DNA of 64,000 nt from Aequorivita vladivostokensis (lineage in GTDB: Bacteria; Bacteroidota; Bacteroidia; Flavobacteriales; Flavobacteriaceae), in contig NZ_JSVU01000008.1 in the NCBI RefSeq assembly GCF_000952855.1, forward strand, positions 1-64,000, given 5' to 3'. The position numbers were made by a program, and so were the translations under genes. The notes under the pieces are model-generated. The model was not told the DNA's origin. It searched no databases and saw nothing but the letters and a program-made list of their open reading frames with translations. Below, in pieces: positions 32,391-59,133 of this stretch (positions are counted from its first letter, which is position 1; every line of letters begins with the position of its first letter).

Positions 32391-33671
32391 ATGAATATAC
32401 CATCCCTCCACCATTATTTTTTACAGAGTAGCGGCATAAGTACCGACACCCGGAAAATTTATAAGAACTCCCTTTATTTTGCTCTAAAGGGTGAAAATTT
32501 CAATGGAAATCTTTTTGCGCAGGAAGCTTTAGACAAGGGCGCCTTCAAAGTGGTAATCGATGAGGCCGCTTTTCACAAAACGAACGGGGAAACAATTTTA
32601 GTTGAAAACGTACTTTTGGCACTTCAGCAGTTGGCCAGTTTTCACAGAAAATATTTAAATCTTCCAATCATATCGCTTACGGGCAGTAATGGGAAAACCA
32701 CTTCCAAGGAATTAATAAATGCAGTGCTTTCCCAAAAATTCAATACTGTGGCCACCCAAGGAAATTTGAACAATCATATAGGTGTACCCTTAACGCTGCT
32801 AAAAATGGATAAGCAAACTGAACTTGGCATTGTTGAGATGGGCGCAAACCATTTGGGCGAAATAAAATTATTGAGCGAAATTGCCAAACCAGATTACGGA
32901 TATATTACAAATTTCGGAAAGGCCCACTTGGAAGGTTTTGGAAGTTTGGAGGGCGTGATTCAGGGCAAGACAGAGCTCTATCAATTTCTAAAACAAAACA
33001 ATAAGAAAGTTTTTGTCAATGCCAGTGACCCTAAGCAAATGGAAAACTCCACAGGGATTGATAGAATAACCTTTGGAACTGCCCAGAGTGACTTCAACAT
33101 TCAATTATTGGACAGTTCCCATCACCTTTTGGTAGCCTTCGGTGATACAAAAATTCAAAGTAATCTCGTGGGAGCGTATAATTTTGTAAATCTTTCCGCA
33201 GCTATTGCGATAGGCGCCTATTTTCAGGTATCTTCTGAAAAAATTAAAGCGGGCATTGAAAGCTATATTCCATCAAACAATCGTTCTCAAGTAATTGCCA
33301 AAGGCTCCAACAACATTTTAATGGATGCCTATAACGCCAATCCAACCAGCATGCTGGCCGCTCTGGAAAATTTCAAACAAACGGCGGGGGCGAACAAGAT
33401 TCTCTTTTTGGGAGACATGTTTGAACTGGGAAAAGATGCCGAAAAAGAACACCAAAATATCGTTGATTTCTTGGCAGAAAACCCCTTTGGAAGCGTTTAT
33501 TTAATAGGAATCAATTTCTTTAAAACATCGAATCCTGCGTCGCACATTAAACAATTTGAAACCTTTGACGAGTTAAAGAAGACACTCGCAAAGGAAAATC
33601 CGAAGAATGCAACTATCCTTATAAAAGGTTCCCGCGGAATGGCTTTGGAAAGAATTTTGGACGTTATTTAA
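32391..33671 (+). CDS. murF: UDP-N-acetylmuramoyl-tripeptide--D-alanyl-D-alanine ligase
   Basis: 426 residues. Mur ligase with the ATP loop SLTGSNGKTTSKEL, central-domain GIVEMGANHLGEI and ITNFGKAHLEGFG, and the C-terminal domain with LMDAYNANPTSM and LFLGDMFELG. These match MurF, which adds D-Ala-D-Ala to the UDP-MurNAc-tripeptide. It starts right after the gldJ terminator; no good -7 box is seen, so some read-through may be needed. Confidence 0.95.
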   Translation: MNIPSLHHYFLQSSGISTDTRKIYKNSLYFALKGENFNGNLFAQEALDKGAFKVVIDEAAFHKTNGETILVENVLLALQQLASFHRKYLNLPIISLTGSNGKTTSKELINAVLSQKFNTVATQGNLNNHIGVPLTLLKMDKQTELGIVEMGANHLGEIKLLSEIAKPDYGYITNFGKAHLEGFGSLEGVIQGKTELYQFLKQNNKKVFVNASDPKQMENSTGIDRITFGTAQSDFNIQLLDSSHHLLVAFGDTKIQSNLVGAYNFVNLSAAIAIGAYFQVSSEKIKAGIESYIPSNNRSQVIAKGSNNILMDAYNANPTSMLAALENFKQTAGANKILFLGDMFELGKDAEKEHQNIVDFLAENPFGSVYLIGINFFKTSNPASHIKQFETFDELKKTLAKENPKNATILIKGSRGMALERILDVI

Positions 33672-33673
33672 GC

Positions 33674-34090
33674 CTATTCAAGAAAGCTATAGGCAAACTC
33701 CAGATTATCTATAACAAGATTATTTTCTAAATCTGAAATTGTCCATTTTACCGGCCAAGCCTTTATAAAACTCCAGGACTTATGGGCGTTCCCGGCTTCA
33801 TCCAATAAGTTAACAACTATATCTTTGGTTTCCACGGAATCTGCTGAATTACCATTTAAGGTTCCTAAACACCAAGTTACAATCTCAGAATCCTTAGGCG
33901 CCAACCCGCACTTTAAAATCAAATTTGAGAATTTAGCAGAAGTAGGCACGTGCTGTTGTATGCTGTTATCTGAAATATCCTCCAATTCCATTAAAACCCC
34001 AGATAATTCCTTAAAAACAATCCTGTCCTTTTCGGTATTATCACGAAAACTGAGTTCAAAGGAAAAAAATACGGGAGGATACTTATTCAT
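33674..34090 (-). CDS. Contractile-tail tube protein, T4 gp19 / eCIS type
   Basis: 138 residues. The C-terminal part is diagnostic for the phage T4 gp19-like tube family: VETKDIVVNLLDEAGNAHKSW, FIKAWPVKWTISDLEN, LVIDNLEFAYSF. The N-terminal half has ELSGVLMELED and the FSNLILKCGL segment expected in this fold. Such proteins build the inner tube of extracellular contractile injection systems (Afp/PVC type) and contractile phage tails. No sheath, baseplate, ATPase or toxin gene is nearby. Two bases separate it from the broken homologous gene upstream. The frame is intact, but it may be a relic without partners. The stop lies three bases from the murF stop (convergent). Confidence 0.8.
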   Translation of the reverse strand: MNKYPPVFFSFELSFRDNTEKDRIVFKELSGVLMELEDISDNSIQQHVPTSAKFSNLILKCGLAPKDSEIVTWCLGTLNGNSADSVETKDIVVNLLDEAGNAHKSWSFIKAWPVKWTISDLENNLVIDNLEFAYSFLE

Positions 34091-34092
34091 AG

Positions 34093-34544
34093 CTATCCGT
34101 TACTAATCGAAAACCCTTCATGGCTGAGCTCTATAGATTTCACGGCAACTTCTGCTGTATTAACTAAATCTATTCCGACGATTTGGGAAGGCCAAGCTTT
34201 ATGTAAAGTATAAGTCATAAAAGGATTTTCAGTTTCGTCCAAAAGTTGGATGGTTACAGTTTCCTTTTTTACGGTATTCTTTTTTATGGTGTCATACCAT
34301 TTTTTGAAACTGTCATCGTTTATAAAGATTACCTTCTGTAGAGTTACATTTCCAATTTTAGTTCTATTTGACATTTTTGGGACAGAGAATTGATTGCTAT
34401 CATCGCTCCTATTTCTATTCCGGCTTCTCCAATTTCCAAACCTGAAACTTCTTGAAATGCAGCTCTATTATCCAGTGATTCAAAATGTACCGTAAAGTAA
34501 AACTTAGGTATGGGCTAAATACGGTCCTGTGCTTCTCCTGCCAT
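34093..34544 (-). pseudogene. Broken second gp19-like tail tube gene (premature stop plus frameshift)
   Basis: Translating the minus strand from the ATG at 34544 gives MAGEAQDRI, then TAG (34517-34515), then PIPKFYFTVHF and AAFQEVSGLEIG, the standard N terminus of gp19/eCIS tube proteins. Near 34400-34410 the homology jumps frame: GIEI in frame one, then SDDSNQFSVPKM and NRTKIGNVTLQKV in another, continuing to the stop at 34093 with VTIQLLDETENPFMTYTLHKAWPS and VKSIELSHEGF. So at least one nonsense change and one small indel have disabled a gene of about 150 codons. The ATG at 34374 yields only a C-terminal 93-residue piece. Confidence 0.8.
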
Positions 34545-34784
34545 CTTATATAATATAAAAGTGATTCTATAATATTAATCAGAAAAATACTGGAATCCTA
34601 TAAGTACGACTACGTAAATTTAGGTCGCCGAAAACCCAAGAGAAAGATGATTTCAGAATAAAAATTTGGAAACTTGTCCAGGGAGCGCGCAACTATCCGC
34701 GAAACCGGTATGGTGCCACGCAAAGACACGATTTCATTCAAACCCAAAGCGCTGGGAGAATACTTAACTACAAATATTGTTTTG
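34545..34784. other. Non-coding stretch between tail-tube relic and tRNA-Val
   Basis: About 240 bases without a convincing gene. One minus-strand frame (34610-34792) is open for 60 codons but runs into the tRNA and resembles nothing I recognise. This could hold decayed remains of the same lost element as the tail-tube genes; nothing in it proves that. Confidence 0.4.
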
Positions 34785-34859
34785 TGGGTCATACTGGATT
34801 CGAACCAGTGACTTCTACCCTGTCAAGGTAACACTCTGAACCAACTGAGTTAATGACCC
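34785..34859 (-). tRNA. tRNA-Val (GAC)
   Basis: On the minus strand the acceptor stem GGGTCAT pairs with ATGACCC. The anticodon stem TTACC/GGTAG encloses loop TTGACAG, giving anticodon GAC (reads GUC/GUU, valine). The T-arm has the canonical GGTTCGAATCC. The CCA end is not encoded (after the discriminator A comes CAAA). The 3' end of the tRNA faces the tail-tube relic, the usual side for integration of mobile elements. Confidence 0.9.
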
Positions 34860-34905: not shown

Positions 34906-35886
34906 TTATTTATCGAATTTTTTAATAGGTTTCTTTTTGATCATGCCTCCTCGCGCATCCTTCACCGAGGTCATAATCATAAACGCTTGGGCGTCAATTT
35001 TTTCCACTTCGGTCTTTAGTTTGCTCATTTCCAAGCGCGTAATAACGGTATAAACCACATCAACCGGCTTTCGGCTTTCTCCTTCTTTTGCAAAACCATT
35101 TTCGGCCTTAAAAATAGTACAGCCTCGGCCCATTTTCTCAATAATGGCCAACCGTATTTCTTCATTCTTTTCAGAAATAATAGTAATTCCCATAAACTCT
35201 TCAATACCGTCAATTACAAAATCCACCGTTTTTGAGGCCGCGAAATAGGTAAGGATCGCGTACAACGCAATTTCAGTGGAAAGGAAATAGGCCGCAGTCA
35301 TGAAAATTACGACGTTGAATATCATAATTACATTCCCCACAGTTAGACTTGTCTTTCGGCTTATGTATATCGCCAAAATCTCAGTGCCATCTATAATGGC
35401 GCCGCCCCGTATAGCCAACCCTATACCCAATCCTAGAAAAAGTCCACCGAAGGAAGCCACCAAAATTTTATCGTCAGTCATTACCGGATAGGGAATCAAC
35501 GCAACGGCAATGGCCAAAAGCAGAATGCCCAACACACTTTTTATTGCAAATCTTCTCCCTACGGAAAAATATGCCAGGGCCAAAAACGGAAGATTGAAAC
35601 ATATCAATAACAGCGGAAATGAAATACCTGCAAGCTCGTTTACCATTAACGAAATACCCGTTACCCCGCCATCAATAAAGCTGTTTGGCATTAAAAAACC
35701 CCTAAGTCCAAAGGCTGCCGAAACAACCCCTAAAAGAAGATAGAAGAAATCCCAAATCTCGTGGATCACCTCCACTTCCAGATTTTTTACGCGTTTGTCG
35801 AAAGGCTCCGTAACCTGGGACGGTTTCCGGTGCTTTTGACGGTTTTTTACTACGTTTACTATTATATTCTTAAAGAATGGATTCAA
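34906..35886 (-). CDS. YitT family membrane protein (DUF161/DUF2179)
   Basis: 326 residues. N-terminal part is basic and soluble, followed by five to six helices with the YitT core (GFLMPNSFIDGGVTGISLMVNEL, GGLFLGLGIGLAIRGGAIIDGTEILAIYISRKT). The C-terminal DUF2179 domain (GMTVF-like region GCTIFKAENGF, then VVYTVITRLEMSKLKTEVEKIDAQAFM) is intact. Function not established. It lies between the two tRNA-Val genes on the same strand. Confidence 0.88.
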   Translation of the reverse strand: MNPFFKNIIVNVVKNRQKHRKPSQVTEPFDKRVKNLEVEVIHEIWDFFYLLLGVVSAAFGLRGFLMPNSFIDGGVTGISLMVNELAGISFPLLLICFNLPFLALAYFSVGRRFAIKSVLGILLLAIAVALIPYPVMTDDKILVASFGGLFLGLGIGLAIRGGAIIDGTEILAIYISRKTSLTVGNVIMIFNVVIFMTAAYFLSTEIALYAILTYFAASKTVDFVIDGIEEFMGITIISEKNEEIRLAIIEKMGRGCTIFKAENGFAKEGESRKPVDVVYTVITRLEMSKLKTEVEKIDAQAFMIMTSVKDARGGMIKKKPIKKFDK

Positions 35887-55526: not shown

Positions 55527-56222
55527 CTTTATTTCGGCCTCAAAGAGGAATAGGAAATTTTTTAACAATTTCATCTTTACTTCCTCCATATCAACCATTG
55601 CCTTACCCAATTCCACATTTAAGGAAGTAACCGCCTTGCCCTTTATACCACACGGAATCATATGGTCAAAATAGCCCAGATCGGTATTTACGTTTAAAGC
55701 AAATCCGTGCATGGTTACCCACCGGCTTGCCCGCACGCCCATGGCACAGATTTTTCTGGCAAAGGGGGTGCCCACGTCCAGCCAAACCCCGGTTTCTCCC
55801 TTGCTGCGCTCCGCTCTTACGTTGTATTCTGCCAAAGTGAGGATGATCATTTCCTCCAGCAACCGCATGTATTTGTGGATATCGGTAAAGAAATTTTCCA
55901 GATCGAGTATGGGATATCCCACAATCTGGCCGGGCCCGTGATAGGTGATATCACCACCGCGGTTGATTTTGTAAAAGGTGGCATTTAATGCCTTTAATTT
56001 TTCTTCAGAAATAAGCAAATTTTCAATATGTCCGCTTTTTCCTAAGGTATAAACGTGAAGATGTTCGACAAATAAAAGATAATTTGGAGTGACAAGCTCC
56101 AAATTATCTTTTTTGTTTTTGCTTTTTATTTGTAGAATATTTCGAAATAGTGATTCTTGAAGATCCCAAATTTCTTGATAATCTTTTAATCCTAAATAAT
56201 TAACTTCAATATACTTGTTCAA
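55509..56222 (-). CDS. lipB: Octanoyltransferase
   Basis: 237 residues. Signature motifs: GGDITYHGPGQIVGYPILDL, GVWLDVGTPFARKICAMGVRASRWVTMHGFALNV, and the catalytic-Cys segment MIPCGIKGKAVTSL. It moves octanoyl groups from acyl carrier protein to lipoyl domains such as those in the E2 protein and the glycine-cleavage H protein. Start at ATG 56222; -7 box 21 bases upstream. Confidence 0.95.
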   Translation of the reverse strand: MNKYIEVNYLGLKDYQEIWDLQESLFRNILQIKSKNKKDNLELVTPNYLLFVEHLHVYTLGKSGHIENLLISEEKLKALNATFYKINRGGDITYHGPGQIVGYPILDLENFFTDIHKYMRLLEEMIILTLAEYNVRAERSKGETGVWLDVGTPFARKICAMGVRASRWVTMHGFALNVNTDLGYFDHMIPCGIKGKAVTSLNVELGKAMVDMEEVKMKLLKNFLFLFEAEIKEKTEA

Positions 56223-56242
56223 AGATTTTTTTAAATTAACTG

Positions 56243-56250
56243 CAAATATA
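56243..56250 (-). promoter_or_regulatory. -7 box (TATATTTG) of lipB
   Basis: TATATTTG on the minus strand, 20 bases before the lipB ATG and next to the stop of the upstream cargo gene. Confidence 0.5.
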
Positions 56251-56251
56251 C

Positions 56252-58039
56252 CTATTCTTTGATTAGCGTTTTTGTAATTATCTCTCCATCATTAAAAACA
56301 ACTTTTACATAATACACACCGGTTATAAGTTTACTCAAATCAATTTCTACATTTTTTGCACCTATCATTTTAAAAGATCCAGAACGTTGAATAATACCGT
56401 ATGGATTAGAAATTTCCCAGCTATACATATTTTCTTCGCTTTTCATATTTAATAAATCAGAAGTTGGGTTTGGATGTAAAATTAGAACCTTTTCTATTTG
56501 CGAGTCAAAATTCTCATTGCTTTTGGTTAAGCCATCTTCACTTATAATTGGAGGGACGGTACAGCCTTGAATAAATGCTTTAAAATCGGAGCCTGATTTT
56601 GCATTAAAGCCTGGTTTTAAAAAGACCGTAACTCCAGCATCGTATTCTGCTATTGCCCCACTATATATAATATTCGTAGCAGTAATGGTGTTTAATGCCG
56701 AATGTTCATCATTTTCTCCTGATAAGACATCTTCAGTTATAGTAAGATCGCTAACGCAAAAAGGTAAATTGGGGATTAGTTGAGGAAACATATATCCATT
56801 ATTTGTAGAAGATGGAGCGTTTATTATTGAAATTGGATCTGAATTAGCGTTCCAAACATTTGGAGAATTTATAACCCCCCAATAATCATTTTCGATGCTT
56901 ATAGAATATTCAAGAGTACCAATATCATTATATATAACATAAATTTTCCCATTTTTTGCACGCTGCAAGTTAATTCTATGGTGATCATCAATTAAAGGAA
57001 ATGAAAAATTGTTTTGAAATGTAAGACCAGCTAATTCTTGTGTAGAAATATTATACATAGCAATACCGCCTTTTCTTATTATATGACCCCCAATAGTAAA
57101 ATCGGATATGGAAAAATAGATTATATTACTATCTTCAGAAAACTCAGCACTACTTTTACTTCCCAAAGGGTTACTGTAATAAATATTATTGGAAGTAAAA
57201 TCCAATGGATTGGAAACTTGACCTGTTGAATTATTAAAATCATAAAGGATCCTATCTGCTCCTATTCCATGACGATCTGATCCTAAAATGTATGTGCCAT
57301 CCGGTGATATTTTGAGATTTGCGTAACTTGCATCGGAAAAACTGCTTATTGTTGGATTATTCATATTAATACCGTTAGAGTCAACTTTATAAGCATAAAA
57401 ACTATTTTGATAGTTAGTTACCAACCAATAATAAGTTTCATCGTGACCTAGTGTTGAAGTCATTGCTCCAGTGGTATTTGATAAAACAACGTTATTTTTT
57501 GAAATAACATTTCCTAAGGCGCTTGACATATTTACTTCCGCATATTGAATTCCAAAACTGAAATATTCACTATAACCAGCTCCAGCTTCACACTCATTAA
57601 AACTAGTTGCAATATTTGTGAAAACTAAGTAATTAGTTGCAGAACCCACCTTTGGCAATATTAATGTACCCTGATTCGTTCCTGTACCACCTCCACAATA
57701 GCCCTCAACTTCATAGAACATATCAAGCATTGTGTTTGTTCCAGGCGGAATACCAGCAAGATAGTTTCCATTGCTCATCATATTACCATTTTTATCAAAA
57801 ATTTTAATTCCATTTGTAAAGAAAAGTAACTGACCAGAGCTTCTATCACTTATTGAAGCAGTGCTATATTTACTTATAAAATTATTAAGAGTAGAAAAAG
57901 AAAAGCTATTGTTCTGATCAAAAATCCATTTATTTTGACCAAACACCCATGTATCATTTTCACGTTGACCATATATTGGTGAGAATTGAAGCGCAATAGC
58001 GATCAATGCCAATAAAATTCTATAATTAAGAGTTCTCAT
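56252..58039 (-). CDS. Secreted protein with 3-coathanger-stack and type IX sorting domain
   Basis: 595 residues. Signal peptide MRTLNYRILLALIAIALQFSPIYG. The N-terminal 400 residues (TWVFGQNKWIFDQNNSFSF..., repeated YWLVTNYQNSFYAYKV, ANLKISPDGTYILGSDRHG, SAEFSEDSNIIYFS) look like a WD40/beta-propeller-like array. Around 440-490 is a 3-coathanger-stack-like segment (AEYDAGVTVFLKPGFNAKSGSDFKAFIQGC). The end (LHPNPTSDLLNM..., ELSKLITGVYYVKV..., TKTLIKE) is a type A sorting domain. Expected PorU/PorV cargo on the cell surface. Visibly AT-richer than most of the window. Confidence 0.85.
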   Translation of the reverse strand: MRTLNYRILLALIAIALQFSPIYGQRENDTWVFGQNKWIFDQNNSFSFSTLNNFISKYSTASISDRSSGQLLFFTNGIKIFDKNGNMMSNGNYLAGIPPGTNTMLDMFYEVEGYCGGGTGTNQGTLILPKVGSATNYLVFTNIATSFNECEAGAGYSEYFSFGIQYAEVNMSSALGNVISKNNVVLSNTTGAMTSTLGHDETYYWLVTNYQNSFYAYKVDSNGINMNNPTISSFSDASYANLKISPDGTYILGSDRHGIGADRILYDFNNSTGQVSNPLDFTSNNIYYSNPLGSKSSAEFSEDSNIIYFSISDFTIGGHIIRKGGIAMYNISTQELAGLTFQNNFSFPLIDDHHRINLQRAKNGKIYVIYNDIGTLEYSISIENDYWGVINSPNVWNANSDPISIINAPSSTNNGYMFPQLIPNLPFCVSDLTITEDVLSGENDEHSALNTITATNIIYSGAIAEYDAGVTVFLKPGFNAKSGSDFKAFIQGCTVPPIISEDGLTKSNENFDSQIEKVLILHPNPTSDLLNMKSEENMYSWEISNPYGIIQRSGSFKMIGAKNVEIDLSKLITGVYYVKVVFNDGEIITKTLIKE

Positions 58040-58071
58040 AACATTATATTTTTAGATTAAAGAAAAAAGAG

Positions 58072-59133
58072 TTATTTATTGGATTCTAGCTTCGTCTCCA
58101 AAATCTTAATCCGTTTCTCTTGCTCAATAGTATACAATGTCAATTCCTCTATCTTTTGTAAAAGTATAGCCGTCATCTTACTTAACTTCAAGCCATCCTT
58201 TTGAATTTCTTCTGCAGAAGGCACATTAGGCAGGTGAAAATTCAATTTAGTAAAATCTTCAATCTCTTGAAGGGTGGGCATCTGGTAGTCACTCTTTAAA
58301 GTTGATTCTCCAGTATAAAATTTTTCAAATACATAATCGGGTGGTACATTTAAATCCACCTTAACTTCTTCTGCATGAATTTTCCCCTTTACGGTTAATT
58401 TTTCATCTGGATTGGAAGTTCCTATTCCAACTTTTCCGTTAACATAGGAATTTCCCTGAACAAATAAATCGACTTCAGTTGTTATATTTCCATCAGCAAT
58501 AATGTTCCCTTCGATAATCGCATTCCCTTGTTTAACGATCAATTTCCCTTCACTAAATCTATAATCGCCAAATCCTCCAATAACAATTCGGGAGTTGGTC
58601 TTAGGCATGTGAATAAATGAACCTAAAGTAGGATCATTACTCACCTTAAATATCTCACCATTGTTGTTATCACGCAAACCTAAATAGGTTGTAGATGAAC
58701 TTGCATAGAATTGGGAACGGTTATTCCCTATTGTTGAGGTTATTCCGCCGTTAGTTGAATTCAAATTATAAATGCTGCCATTCAATCCTATCTGGAAGAG
58801 ATTTCCAGAAGCAAATTCTGGATTGATTTTAACCGTTCCAGCAAAATTGCTGTTAACATTGACATAAAACTTCTCATTTGTTATAACTGGATTTCCGATT
58901 ACCAAAGAATTACCTACAAAATTCATGAGTGTGCTCCCACCTCCAAACGGATTATAATGTTCAAATCTTAGGATTGTTCCATTATATCCCTGAGTACTAG
59001 CTTTACTTATGAAGTAGCCCTTCGCCGTCCCCTGGGTATAAAATTTAATTGATCCGTCACCAACTACAGGATCCATTTGTGCGTTAAGACTCCCTGCACA
59101 AACCAAGATAATAATAAGATAGATTATTCTCAT
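58072..59133 (-). CDS. Secreted tail-fibre-like protein with C-terminal coiled coil
   Basis: 353 residues. Signal peptide MRIIYLIIILVCAGSLNA. Many glycine/asparagine-rich repeats with the VGIGTSNPDEKLTVKGKIHAEEVKV motif common to Bacteroidota tail-fibre-domain proteins, and a C-terminal helix (MTAILLQKIEELTLYTIEQEKRIKILETKL) forming a coiled coil where an S74-type domain is often followed by one. No sorting domain is seen. It is upstream of the sorting-domain gene on the same strand with a 32-base spacer, so the two are probably co-transcribed. AT-rich like its partner. Confidence 0.75.
   Translation of the reverse strand: MRIIYLIIILVCAGSLNAQMDPVVGDGSIKFYTQGTAKGYFISKASTQGYNGTILRFEHYNPFGGGSTLMNFVGNSLVIGNPVITNEKFYVNVNSNFAGTVKINPEFASGNLFQIGLNGSIYNLNSTNGGITSTIGNNRSQFYASSSTTYLGLRDNNNGEIFKVSNDPTLGSFIHMPKTNSRIVIGGFGDYRFSEGKLIVKQGNAIIEGNIIADGNITTEVDLFVQGNSYVNGKVGIGTSNPDEKLTVKGKIHAEEVKVDLNVPPDYVFEKFYTGESTLKSDYQMPTLQEIEDFTKLNFHLPNVPSAEEIQKDGLKLSKMTAILLQKIEELTLYTIEQEKRIKILETKLESNK

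Follow-up and report, generated by a model that had tools for sequence, protein, structure and literature searches.

Two tube genes between tRNA-Val and murF in Aequorivita vladivostokensis: probably the decaying remnant of a contractile injection system

In the genome of Aequorivita vladivostokensis, two adjacent tube genes of the kind found in contractile injection systems stand alone between murF and a tRNA gene, and they raise the question of whether such a pair is the residue of a lost machine, a spare part for another one, or a product of the assembly. The window, i.e. the whole stretch of DNA that was analysed, comprises 64,000 nucleotides of contig C8 of this genome (G000, 3.27 Mb, completeness estimated at 99.99%). 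The gene next to murF is intact (P0001, 33674-34090, minus strand, 138 aa); it matches the gp19 family (PF06841, Phage_T4_gp19, E 7.5e-21 in Pfam), narrowly exceeds the cut-off of TIGR02241 (65.3 bits, E 4.9e-18; cut-off 62.4), and only 2 bp separate its stop codon from that of murF (32391-33671, plus strand; TIGR01143, 2.1e-110), a neighbour conserved in synteny. The gene upstream of it (34093-34544, minus strand) is broken. It starts at 34544, and in the assembly nine codons are followed by a TAG at codon 10 (34517-34515). The homologous protein of Aequorivita antarctica aligns by tblastn with residues 1-44 to 34544-34413 and with residues 46-151 to 34410-34096 in a different frame, which places a frame change at about 34410. 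The open C-terminal piece of this gene (P0002, 34093-34374, minus strand, 93 aa) still matches PF06841 at 9.3e-21, while the piece after the TAG (34371-34514) by itself gives a weak match below the cut-off (E 0.017). As profile matches, those of both genes are far beyond chance. A spacer of 239 bases (34545-34783), in which tblastn found no similarity to CIS proteins, leads to a tRNA-Val(GAC) gene (34784-34859, minus strand) whose 3' end points towards the pair, and past the tRNA follows a YitT-family gene (34906-35886, minus strand; PF02588, 8.3e-59), again conserved in synteny. The first-pass annotation, which had described adjacent gp19/eCIS-type tube genes alone between murF and this tRNA, the upstream copy carrying exactly these two lesions, is therewith borne out, and the profile check that it proposed gave significant matches to the gp19 family. 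As a separate observation, the window has a G+C content of 30-34% at 56001-59000, a segment with two open frames (595 and 353 aa), most of it otherwise having 38-46%.

The two genes are of different types, as their rankings of PDB matches differ. The intact A. antarctica homolog of the broken gene finds 9r9h_B at 8.2e-60, the AlgoCIS chain 7adz_1a at 9.7e-46 and 7aeb_Y at 2.8e-16, and also for P0002 the Cis1-type tube chains rank above 7aeb_Y. P0001 alone finds 9rce_I (4.8e-18), 7aeb_Y (6.9e-14) and then 7b5h_AM, with 7adz_1a (1.5e-9) behind these, and a profile from the alignment of ten proteins of its type, P0001 among them (profile A1), has 7aeb_Y from an AlgoCIS baseplate entry as its best match (1.8e-34, versus 1.8e-18 for AlgoCIS 7adz_1a). 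According to passages of PMC8894135, 7ADZ is the cap module of AlgoCIS, 7AEB and 7AEF represent the baseplate, and Alg5 and Alg7 form the tube initiator; we infer that chain Y of 7AEB is Alg5, although the deposit gives the chain another name. Judged by these rankings, the broken gene codes for a bulk tube protein of Cis1 type (t1 in the following) and the surviving P0001 is an initiator-ring protein of Cis5 type (t2); in the tube tree P0001 sits among the t2/Cis5 sequences. The idea that the survivor is an ordinary bulk tube protein had to be given up on the strength of the family profile. The NCBIfam equivalog CIS5_fam cannot part the two types here, since the A. antarctica t1 scores nearly the same (78.5 bits) as the clustered t2 of that species (85.2), which itself fails the cut-off of 260 as does P0001 with 44.6 bits.

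A search of the entire window by tblastn with eCIS proteins finds the two tube genes and everything else only at E of at least 0.006; no sheath, spike, gp25, wedge, tape-measure or ATPase gene was detected beside the tubes in these 64 kb, and a full eCIS cluster inside the window is ruled out. The likeness to AlgoCIS of Algoriphagus machipongonensis is hence one of the two tube types, as seen in the matches of the A. antarctica t1 to 7adz_1a and of the t2 profile to 7aeb_Y, whereas the AlgoCIS locus has, according to passages of PMC8894135, 18 ORFs with a gp25-like Alg9, the wedges Alg11/12 and a LysM-bearing Alg7, and the window has two tube genes, one of them broken. The strain nevertheless is not devoid of injection systems, because contig C3 carries a complete eCIS at about 132.9-158.8 kb, consisting of a cap (Pvc16_N), a 291-aa gene without Pfam match, a sheath, a pair of tube genes that are both intact, CIS_tube, spike, gp25, Baseplate_J, CIS_TMP, an AAA ATPase, and a protein that combines eCIS_core with a putative metallopeptidase domain. 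The absence of a contractile system, claimed at first, therefore holds for the window but fails for the strain, in which sheath and baseplate genes are both present on C3, and likewise the pair can be regarded as the last trace of a lost system at its locus, where this is the best reading, but not in the strain. A gp25 match of the C3 strength (E <1e-20) is found in 11 of the 28 genomes of the genus.

With a complete eCIS available on C3, P0001 might be kept as a useful spare, namely as an alternative Cis5 initiator ring for that system, in the manner of orphan hcp/vgrG islands. Orphan islands of T6SS (hcp, vgrG, PAAR) are established (PMC13098142) and resemble the window pair in having tube or spike genes away from the complete system, and a comparable case is Ulvibacter antarcticus, in which an intact pair stands alone and a C3-type eCIS is present as well. 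This role is nonetheless quite unlikely for P0001. The protein shares just 33% identity with the C3-type Cis5 of Ulvibacter, and, unlike the islands, the window tubes are of the eCIS gp19 type, come with neither a spike nor an effector gene, and are visibly decaying.

More can be learned from the same spot in the other species. The 3' end of murF was located in 26 of the 28 Aequorivita genomes, and as the match in G025 is short, with no murF in the stretch, 25 loci could be compared, the window included. CIS genes occupy 12 of these, their number varying from a single tube gene or two to eight genes in a partial cluster, and relatives of both window tube genes hold the same spot in other species. 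The largest set is that of A. antarctica SW49 (G001), in which the pair, a spike, the C-terminus of a tape measure and DUF4280, i.e. the set that is also present in G019 and G022, are joined by AAA, cap and an extra t2 copy adjoining murF (t2b). G023 has a cap, a 622-aa sheath and t1, G003 has t2 only, and seven genomes have only the pair: the window genome, Aequorivita aquimaris D-24 (G002), G007, G012, G015, G017 and G020. Broken genes at this spot are the t1 of the window and the t2 of G007, the latter by one TGA. At the other 13 loci (G004-G006, G008-G011, G013, G016, G021, G024, G026, G027), BLAST of the open frames found no CIS gene; in G010, G013 and G027, the interval from the yitT-like gene to murF has no called tRNA-Val. 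The comparison of the murF/tRNA-Val/yitT interval proposed by the first-pass annotation thus revealed larger CIS sets, but the largest is partial and a full cluster was not among them. The most probable explanation, held with some confidence, is that the pair is a decaying remnant of an eCIS that once was located between tRNA-Val(GAC) and murF in Aequorivita, and the verdict on the spot as such is mostly ordinary eCIS decay, the spot being found emptied in many species; these marine bacteria appear to have lost the remainder of such a system here repeatedly. On this reading, P0001 most likely does no job in the window strain, or soon will do none, because the upstream gene, 2 bp away, ends at codon 10 and the lone sheath kept by relatives (see below) is absent.

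The relatives also bear on a phage origin, which is suggested by gp19 being the name of a phage family. That the pair is left from an ordinary contractile-tailed prophage is scarcely conceivable, as the neighbours at the murF spot in relatives are eCIS genes (Pvc16_N, CIS_TMP, AAA, Phage_base_V, DUF4280) and the A. antarctica t2, which served as the only query here, gave no match by tblastn among 50,697 phage records; a prophage tail was rejected on these grounds. The same t2 matches 94 plasmid records, all with less than 60% identity among the matches listed. Some further CIS genes of the genus lie elsewhere: G008 (L037:9751-11246, with a tape-measure C-terminus) and G021 (L039:9752-10666) each have a tube pair of a different subtype at another locus, and there is an additional partial cluster in A. 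antarctica with a spike, a 99-aa gene and a 270-aa tape-measure-like gene (L144:8535-11707). The tRNA-Val beside the CIS genes of G023 (L042:6540-6620) has its T arm interrupted by a short G+C-rich palindrome, and similar palindromes are seen by eye in three spacers (G002, G012, G016).

Genome-wide searches covered the families of tube, sheath, gp25, spike, tape measure and Baseplate_J. In three genomes with full clusters that served as controls (L156, L162, L173), gp25 was matched in all three, and Baseplate_J was over the cut-off in one, below it in another and without match in the third. The absence of Baseplate_J therefore counts little, in Aequorivita too, because the true Cis11 of this subtype is missed, and gp25 is the better test and the sole firm negative. 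Four of the seven pair-only genomes (G007, G015, G017, G020; completeness 87% for G017 and 94% for G020) have no match to gp25, spike, tape measure or Baseplate_J. A role as spare subunit of a complete system, which the first-pass annotation gave as an example of another job, hence cannot be general, and the lack of a complete system in these four is a further difference to the T6SS islands.

Selection on the tube genes was estimated with branch tests (our own GY94/F3x4 script on FastTree trees; 34 foreground sets, p values uncorrected). Against a background omega of about 0.2, t1 is raised at two of eleven tips, A. aquimaris (2.76, p 8e-4) and the C-terminal piece of the window (0.46, p 0.028), and taken together, in a post hoc grouping, these two have an omega of 0.62 versus 0.195 (p 2.4e-4). 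The other nine tips are not raised, and that of G020 is lower (0.12, p 0.045). An omega of 1.00 is obtained for G002 with G012, and the whole pair-only clade of the window has 0.31 versus 0.18 (p 0.014), but the difference disappears once all four pair genomes that lack a sheath are taken as foreground (0.26 versus 0.21, p 0.27), and the t1 genes of G017 (0.20) and G020 (0.12) are constrained although neither genome has a sheath match or more than the pair. Under this simple model, selection on t1 is shown to be relaxed both in A. aquimaris and in the lineage of the window, and in the latter t1 decays. For t2, the P0001 branch has an omega of 0.28 that differs from 1 (p 1.3e-4) and not from the background (p 0.75); together with the intact frame, this speaks for the use as a spare ring and leaves retention for another job conceivable, but the branch is long, so that its omega reflects constraint in the past rather than the present and may include a period in which the complete system was still there. 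The tip of G015 has 1.04 (p 0.019), the t2 genes of G012 and G015, both of which keep a lone sheath (see below), look relaxed (0.68, p 0.006), and across the window clade relaxation is not significant (0.32 versus 0.23, p 0.15).

Synonymous divergence between close species is sharply unequal between the tube genes (33674-34544 in the window) and the neighbouring housekeeping genes: between G007 and G015 it is 0.449 for t1 and 0.041 for murF, and between G002 and G012 it is 0.70 for t2 and 0.044 for t1. Such unevenness suggests an exchange of alleles between lineages, which makes the branch tests rough and weakens them. In the protein tree, the 93-aa piece of the window stands beside a tube of Crocinitomicaceae (support 80, long branch), and in the DNA tree it groups with G002 and G012 (0.83). 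Since both lesions are small and known from the assembly alone, it may be asked whether the tube gene is in truth intact and the assembly in error; there is very little likelihood of this, given two separate lesions, the omega of 0.46 in the remainder, a TGA in the t2 of G007 that fits real decay, and the near-complete estimate for the genome.

The shrinking of the locus can be pictured as follows. An ancestral eCIS would have occupied the interval between tRNA-Val(GAC) and murF, and in some lineages recombination between duplicated tube-2 genes would have removed the middle of the cluster, leaving a t1-t2 pair flush against murF that then decays; the window would represent a stage at which Cis1 has two lesions (in the assembly) and Cis5 is still open. 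In A. antarctica, the spike, tape-measure, AAA and DUF4280 genes are indeed flanked by two t2 genes, and in the t2 gene tree G017 and G020 group with t2b (support 1.0), the genes of G000, G002, G012 and G015 forming a separate group (0.99). A chimera test on eight sequences used 98 sites that tell t2 from t2b (for G020 its own 70 sites) and 2000 shuffles. It found a switch from t2-like to t2b-like near codon 125 in G012, with none of the 2000 shuffles being as good, and a switch of type near codon 19 in G020 (p 0.003); the other six sequences gave p of at least 0.3. Recombination between the copies with deletion of the middle is thus a fair mechanism for two lineages. It remains without demonstration for the window genome, as its t2 fails the chimera test (p 1.0) and was rejected as a chimera; the t2 genes of G002 (0.31) and G015 (0.38) fail it likewise. 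The A. antarctica cluster also stands between two tRNA copies, because a second tRNA-Val (L045:10419-10494) with 94.7% identity over 76 nt and a damaged acceptor stem lies at its far side, between DUF4280 and t2b. As some of the upstream flank is alike too, a duplication is as good a reading of this as site-specific integration. A tRNA repeat was not found in the window, and an integrase was not noticed among the neighbours of the locus.

Another piece of such machines lies away from the murF spot. In 8 of the 28 genomes (G001, G007, G012, G015, G018, G019, G022, G024), a lone sheath gene of about 520 aa lies near adk/obgE (L100:9497-11056, L101:9564-11126, L102:8808-10376, L103:9808-11376, L104:9962-11530, L105:9915-11480, L106:9002-10567, L108:1408-2976), and in none of the eight is another CIS gene recognised next to it. 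A sheath gene was not found in 15 further adk regions, that of the window genome included; the survey left out G005, G006, G010 and G027, which have an adk match, and G017 has none. The lone sheath is under strong purifying selection (omega 0.08-0.17 in pairwise comparisons and 0.13 in the model; 0.11-0.16 at the tips of G001, G007, G012, G015 and G024, all rejecting 1). Phylogenetically, these eight sheaths fall together with that of a Cytophagales cluster (support 99 in the sheath tree). Tube genes at the murF locus are present in 6 of the 8 genomes with the lone sheath and in 6 of the 20 without it (Fisher p 0.044, kinship ignored), or in 6 of 7 and 5 of 17 if the four genomes with unseen locus are dropped (p 0.023, kinship likewise ignored). 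In the literature, searched with preprints excluded, nothing was found that joins Aequorivita with a contractile injection system, and the terms 'orphan' and 'sheath gene' occur together only in other senses.

It is conceivable, if rather unlikely, that the relatives possess a working dispersed machine, in which the lone sheath near adk acts together with the tubes (and spike) at murF and no recognisable wedge baseplate is needed; the window strain, which does not have that sheath, would then be losing its tubes now, and this is compatible with the remnant reading. Apart from the constrained sheath and its co-occurrence with the tubes, the omega of 0.12-0.14 for the spike between G001, G019 and G022 agrees with such a machine, as does the lack of a Baseplate_J match and of a gp25 match over the cut-off in these three genomes (G001 has one gp25 match below it, at 9.2e-4). 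In the very same clusters, however, constraint is weaker on the tape-measure piece (0.27-0.49) and varies for DUF4280 (0.06-0.34), G024 has the sheath but no match to tube, gp25, spike, tape measure or, as a weak test, Baseplate_J, and G020 has a constrained tube but no sheath. The lack of Baseplate_J is weak evidence for the reason given above, and in the PVC eCIS, single deletion of a baseplate, tube or sheath-initiator gene abolishes the particles, according to passages of PMC12210884.

Beyond the genus, a scan of genomes, one per species, with the A1 profile finds 25 loci, 8 in Aequorivita and 17 outside; P0001 alone finds no relative in the same genome contigs. Eleven of the 17 outside loci have relatives of gp25 and/or Cis11 in the stretch (L156, L161, L162, L163, L167, L170, L173-L177), and that the window pair belongs to an eCIS family follows from the same tubes being present in the full clusters of relatives. 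Three full clusters have the order cap, cap-adaptor-like gene, sheath, t1, t2, LysM/CIS_tube, spike, gp25, Cis11, and on from there a gene of about 254 aa, Cis12, a tape measure of 1150-1547 aa and AAA, with DUF4280 after AAA in UBA3611 and Tenacibaculum. The full eCIS of Flavobacteriia (UBA3611, uncultured Dokdonia, uncultured Tenacibaculum) hence combine the same tube, spike and sheath families in one cluster, and unlike the window they keep LysM, gp25, Cis11, Cis12 and the long tape measure. The remaining loci are three compact clusters (L157, L158, L160), a sheath with one tube gene (L166), a lone pair (L159) and a lone t2 (L172). The lone intact t1-t2 pair is that of U. antarcticus (L159:7531-8432), with its C3-type eCIS elsewhere in the genome, and the single tube gene of Altibacter MAG_02 (L166:7953-8423), adjoining the sheath gene, has a t1-like start on a t2 body.

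The compact cluster of Aureitalea sp. L0-47 (L157:4620-12587) consists of cap, a 269-aa gene, sheath, t1, t2, spike, a 167-aa tape-measure C-terminus, AAA and DUF4280; that of the MAG BCD2 (L160:2789-10241) is the same without a recognised cap, and the third (L158:5202-9007) has sheath, t1, t2 and the tape-measure C-terminus. No LysM, gp25, Cis11 or Cis12 relative was found between the genes of L157 and L160. A gp25 match is absent from the genomes of L158, L160 and L166, which are of unstated completeness, and the Aureitalea genome has one over the cut-off outside the cluster (1.3e-9). All compared genes of the three clusters are open, with 53-94% identity, and t1 and t2 have omega values of 0.04-0.08 where defined; selection was gauged for these two only, because synonymous sites are saturated for most genes. 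Next to all three lies a gene that shares its start with the ssb gene at the side of the UBA3611 cluster. The sheaths of L157, L158, L160 and L166 form one clade (support 93) of 500-505 aa, the seven sister sheaths having 552-713 aa, and the sheath of G023 groups with that of Dokdonia (98). The spike tree gives a less clear picture: BCD2 groups with UBA3611 and Aequorivita (95), and the Aureitalea spike does not. By their sequences, the compact clusters (Aureitalea, BCD2, Co_bin.275, Altibacter MAG_02) and those of Aequorivita are probably not one lineage, and with such separate descent, loss of these parts may have happened repeatedly.

The compact clusters represent either a path that decay often takes or a form that works, and the latter is a possibility to be entertained only tentatively. 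With the same reservation, it could be that a contractile apparatus of reduced form exists in Flavobacteriia and functions with no known wedge baseplate, its parts being dispersed over the chromosome, and that the window pair is its dying end. The apparatus might comprise the sheath, tube, tube initiator, spike, a tape measure reduced to its C-terminus, AAA ATPase, the DUF4280 protein and the cap, and the sheath would be located alone near adk in Aequorivita and inside the compact cluster in Aureitalea. The published clusters of the BIS of gut Bacteroidales also have two tube genes, with LysM, gp25, gp27, gp6 and ATPase, but the most compact BIS form described in passages of PMC7394362 keeps a shorter gp27 and gp6, whereas in the compact clusters of Flavobacteriia neither a gp6-like gene nor gp25 is seen. 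As findings, the lone sheath and the compact clusters outrank the window pair and are what a specialist would pursue. A conserved lone sheath and clusters without recognisable wedge genes pose the question of whether sheath and tube are able to function when the usual baseplate is lacking. The murF locus, of which the window pair is one stage, offers a natural series of the stages in which an injection system is lost within one genus, and it shows which parts outlast the others.
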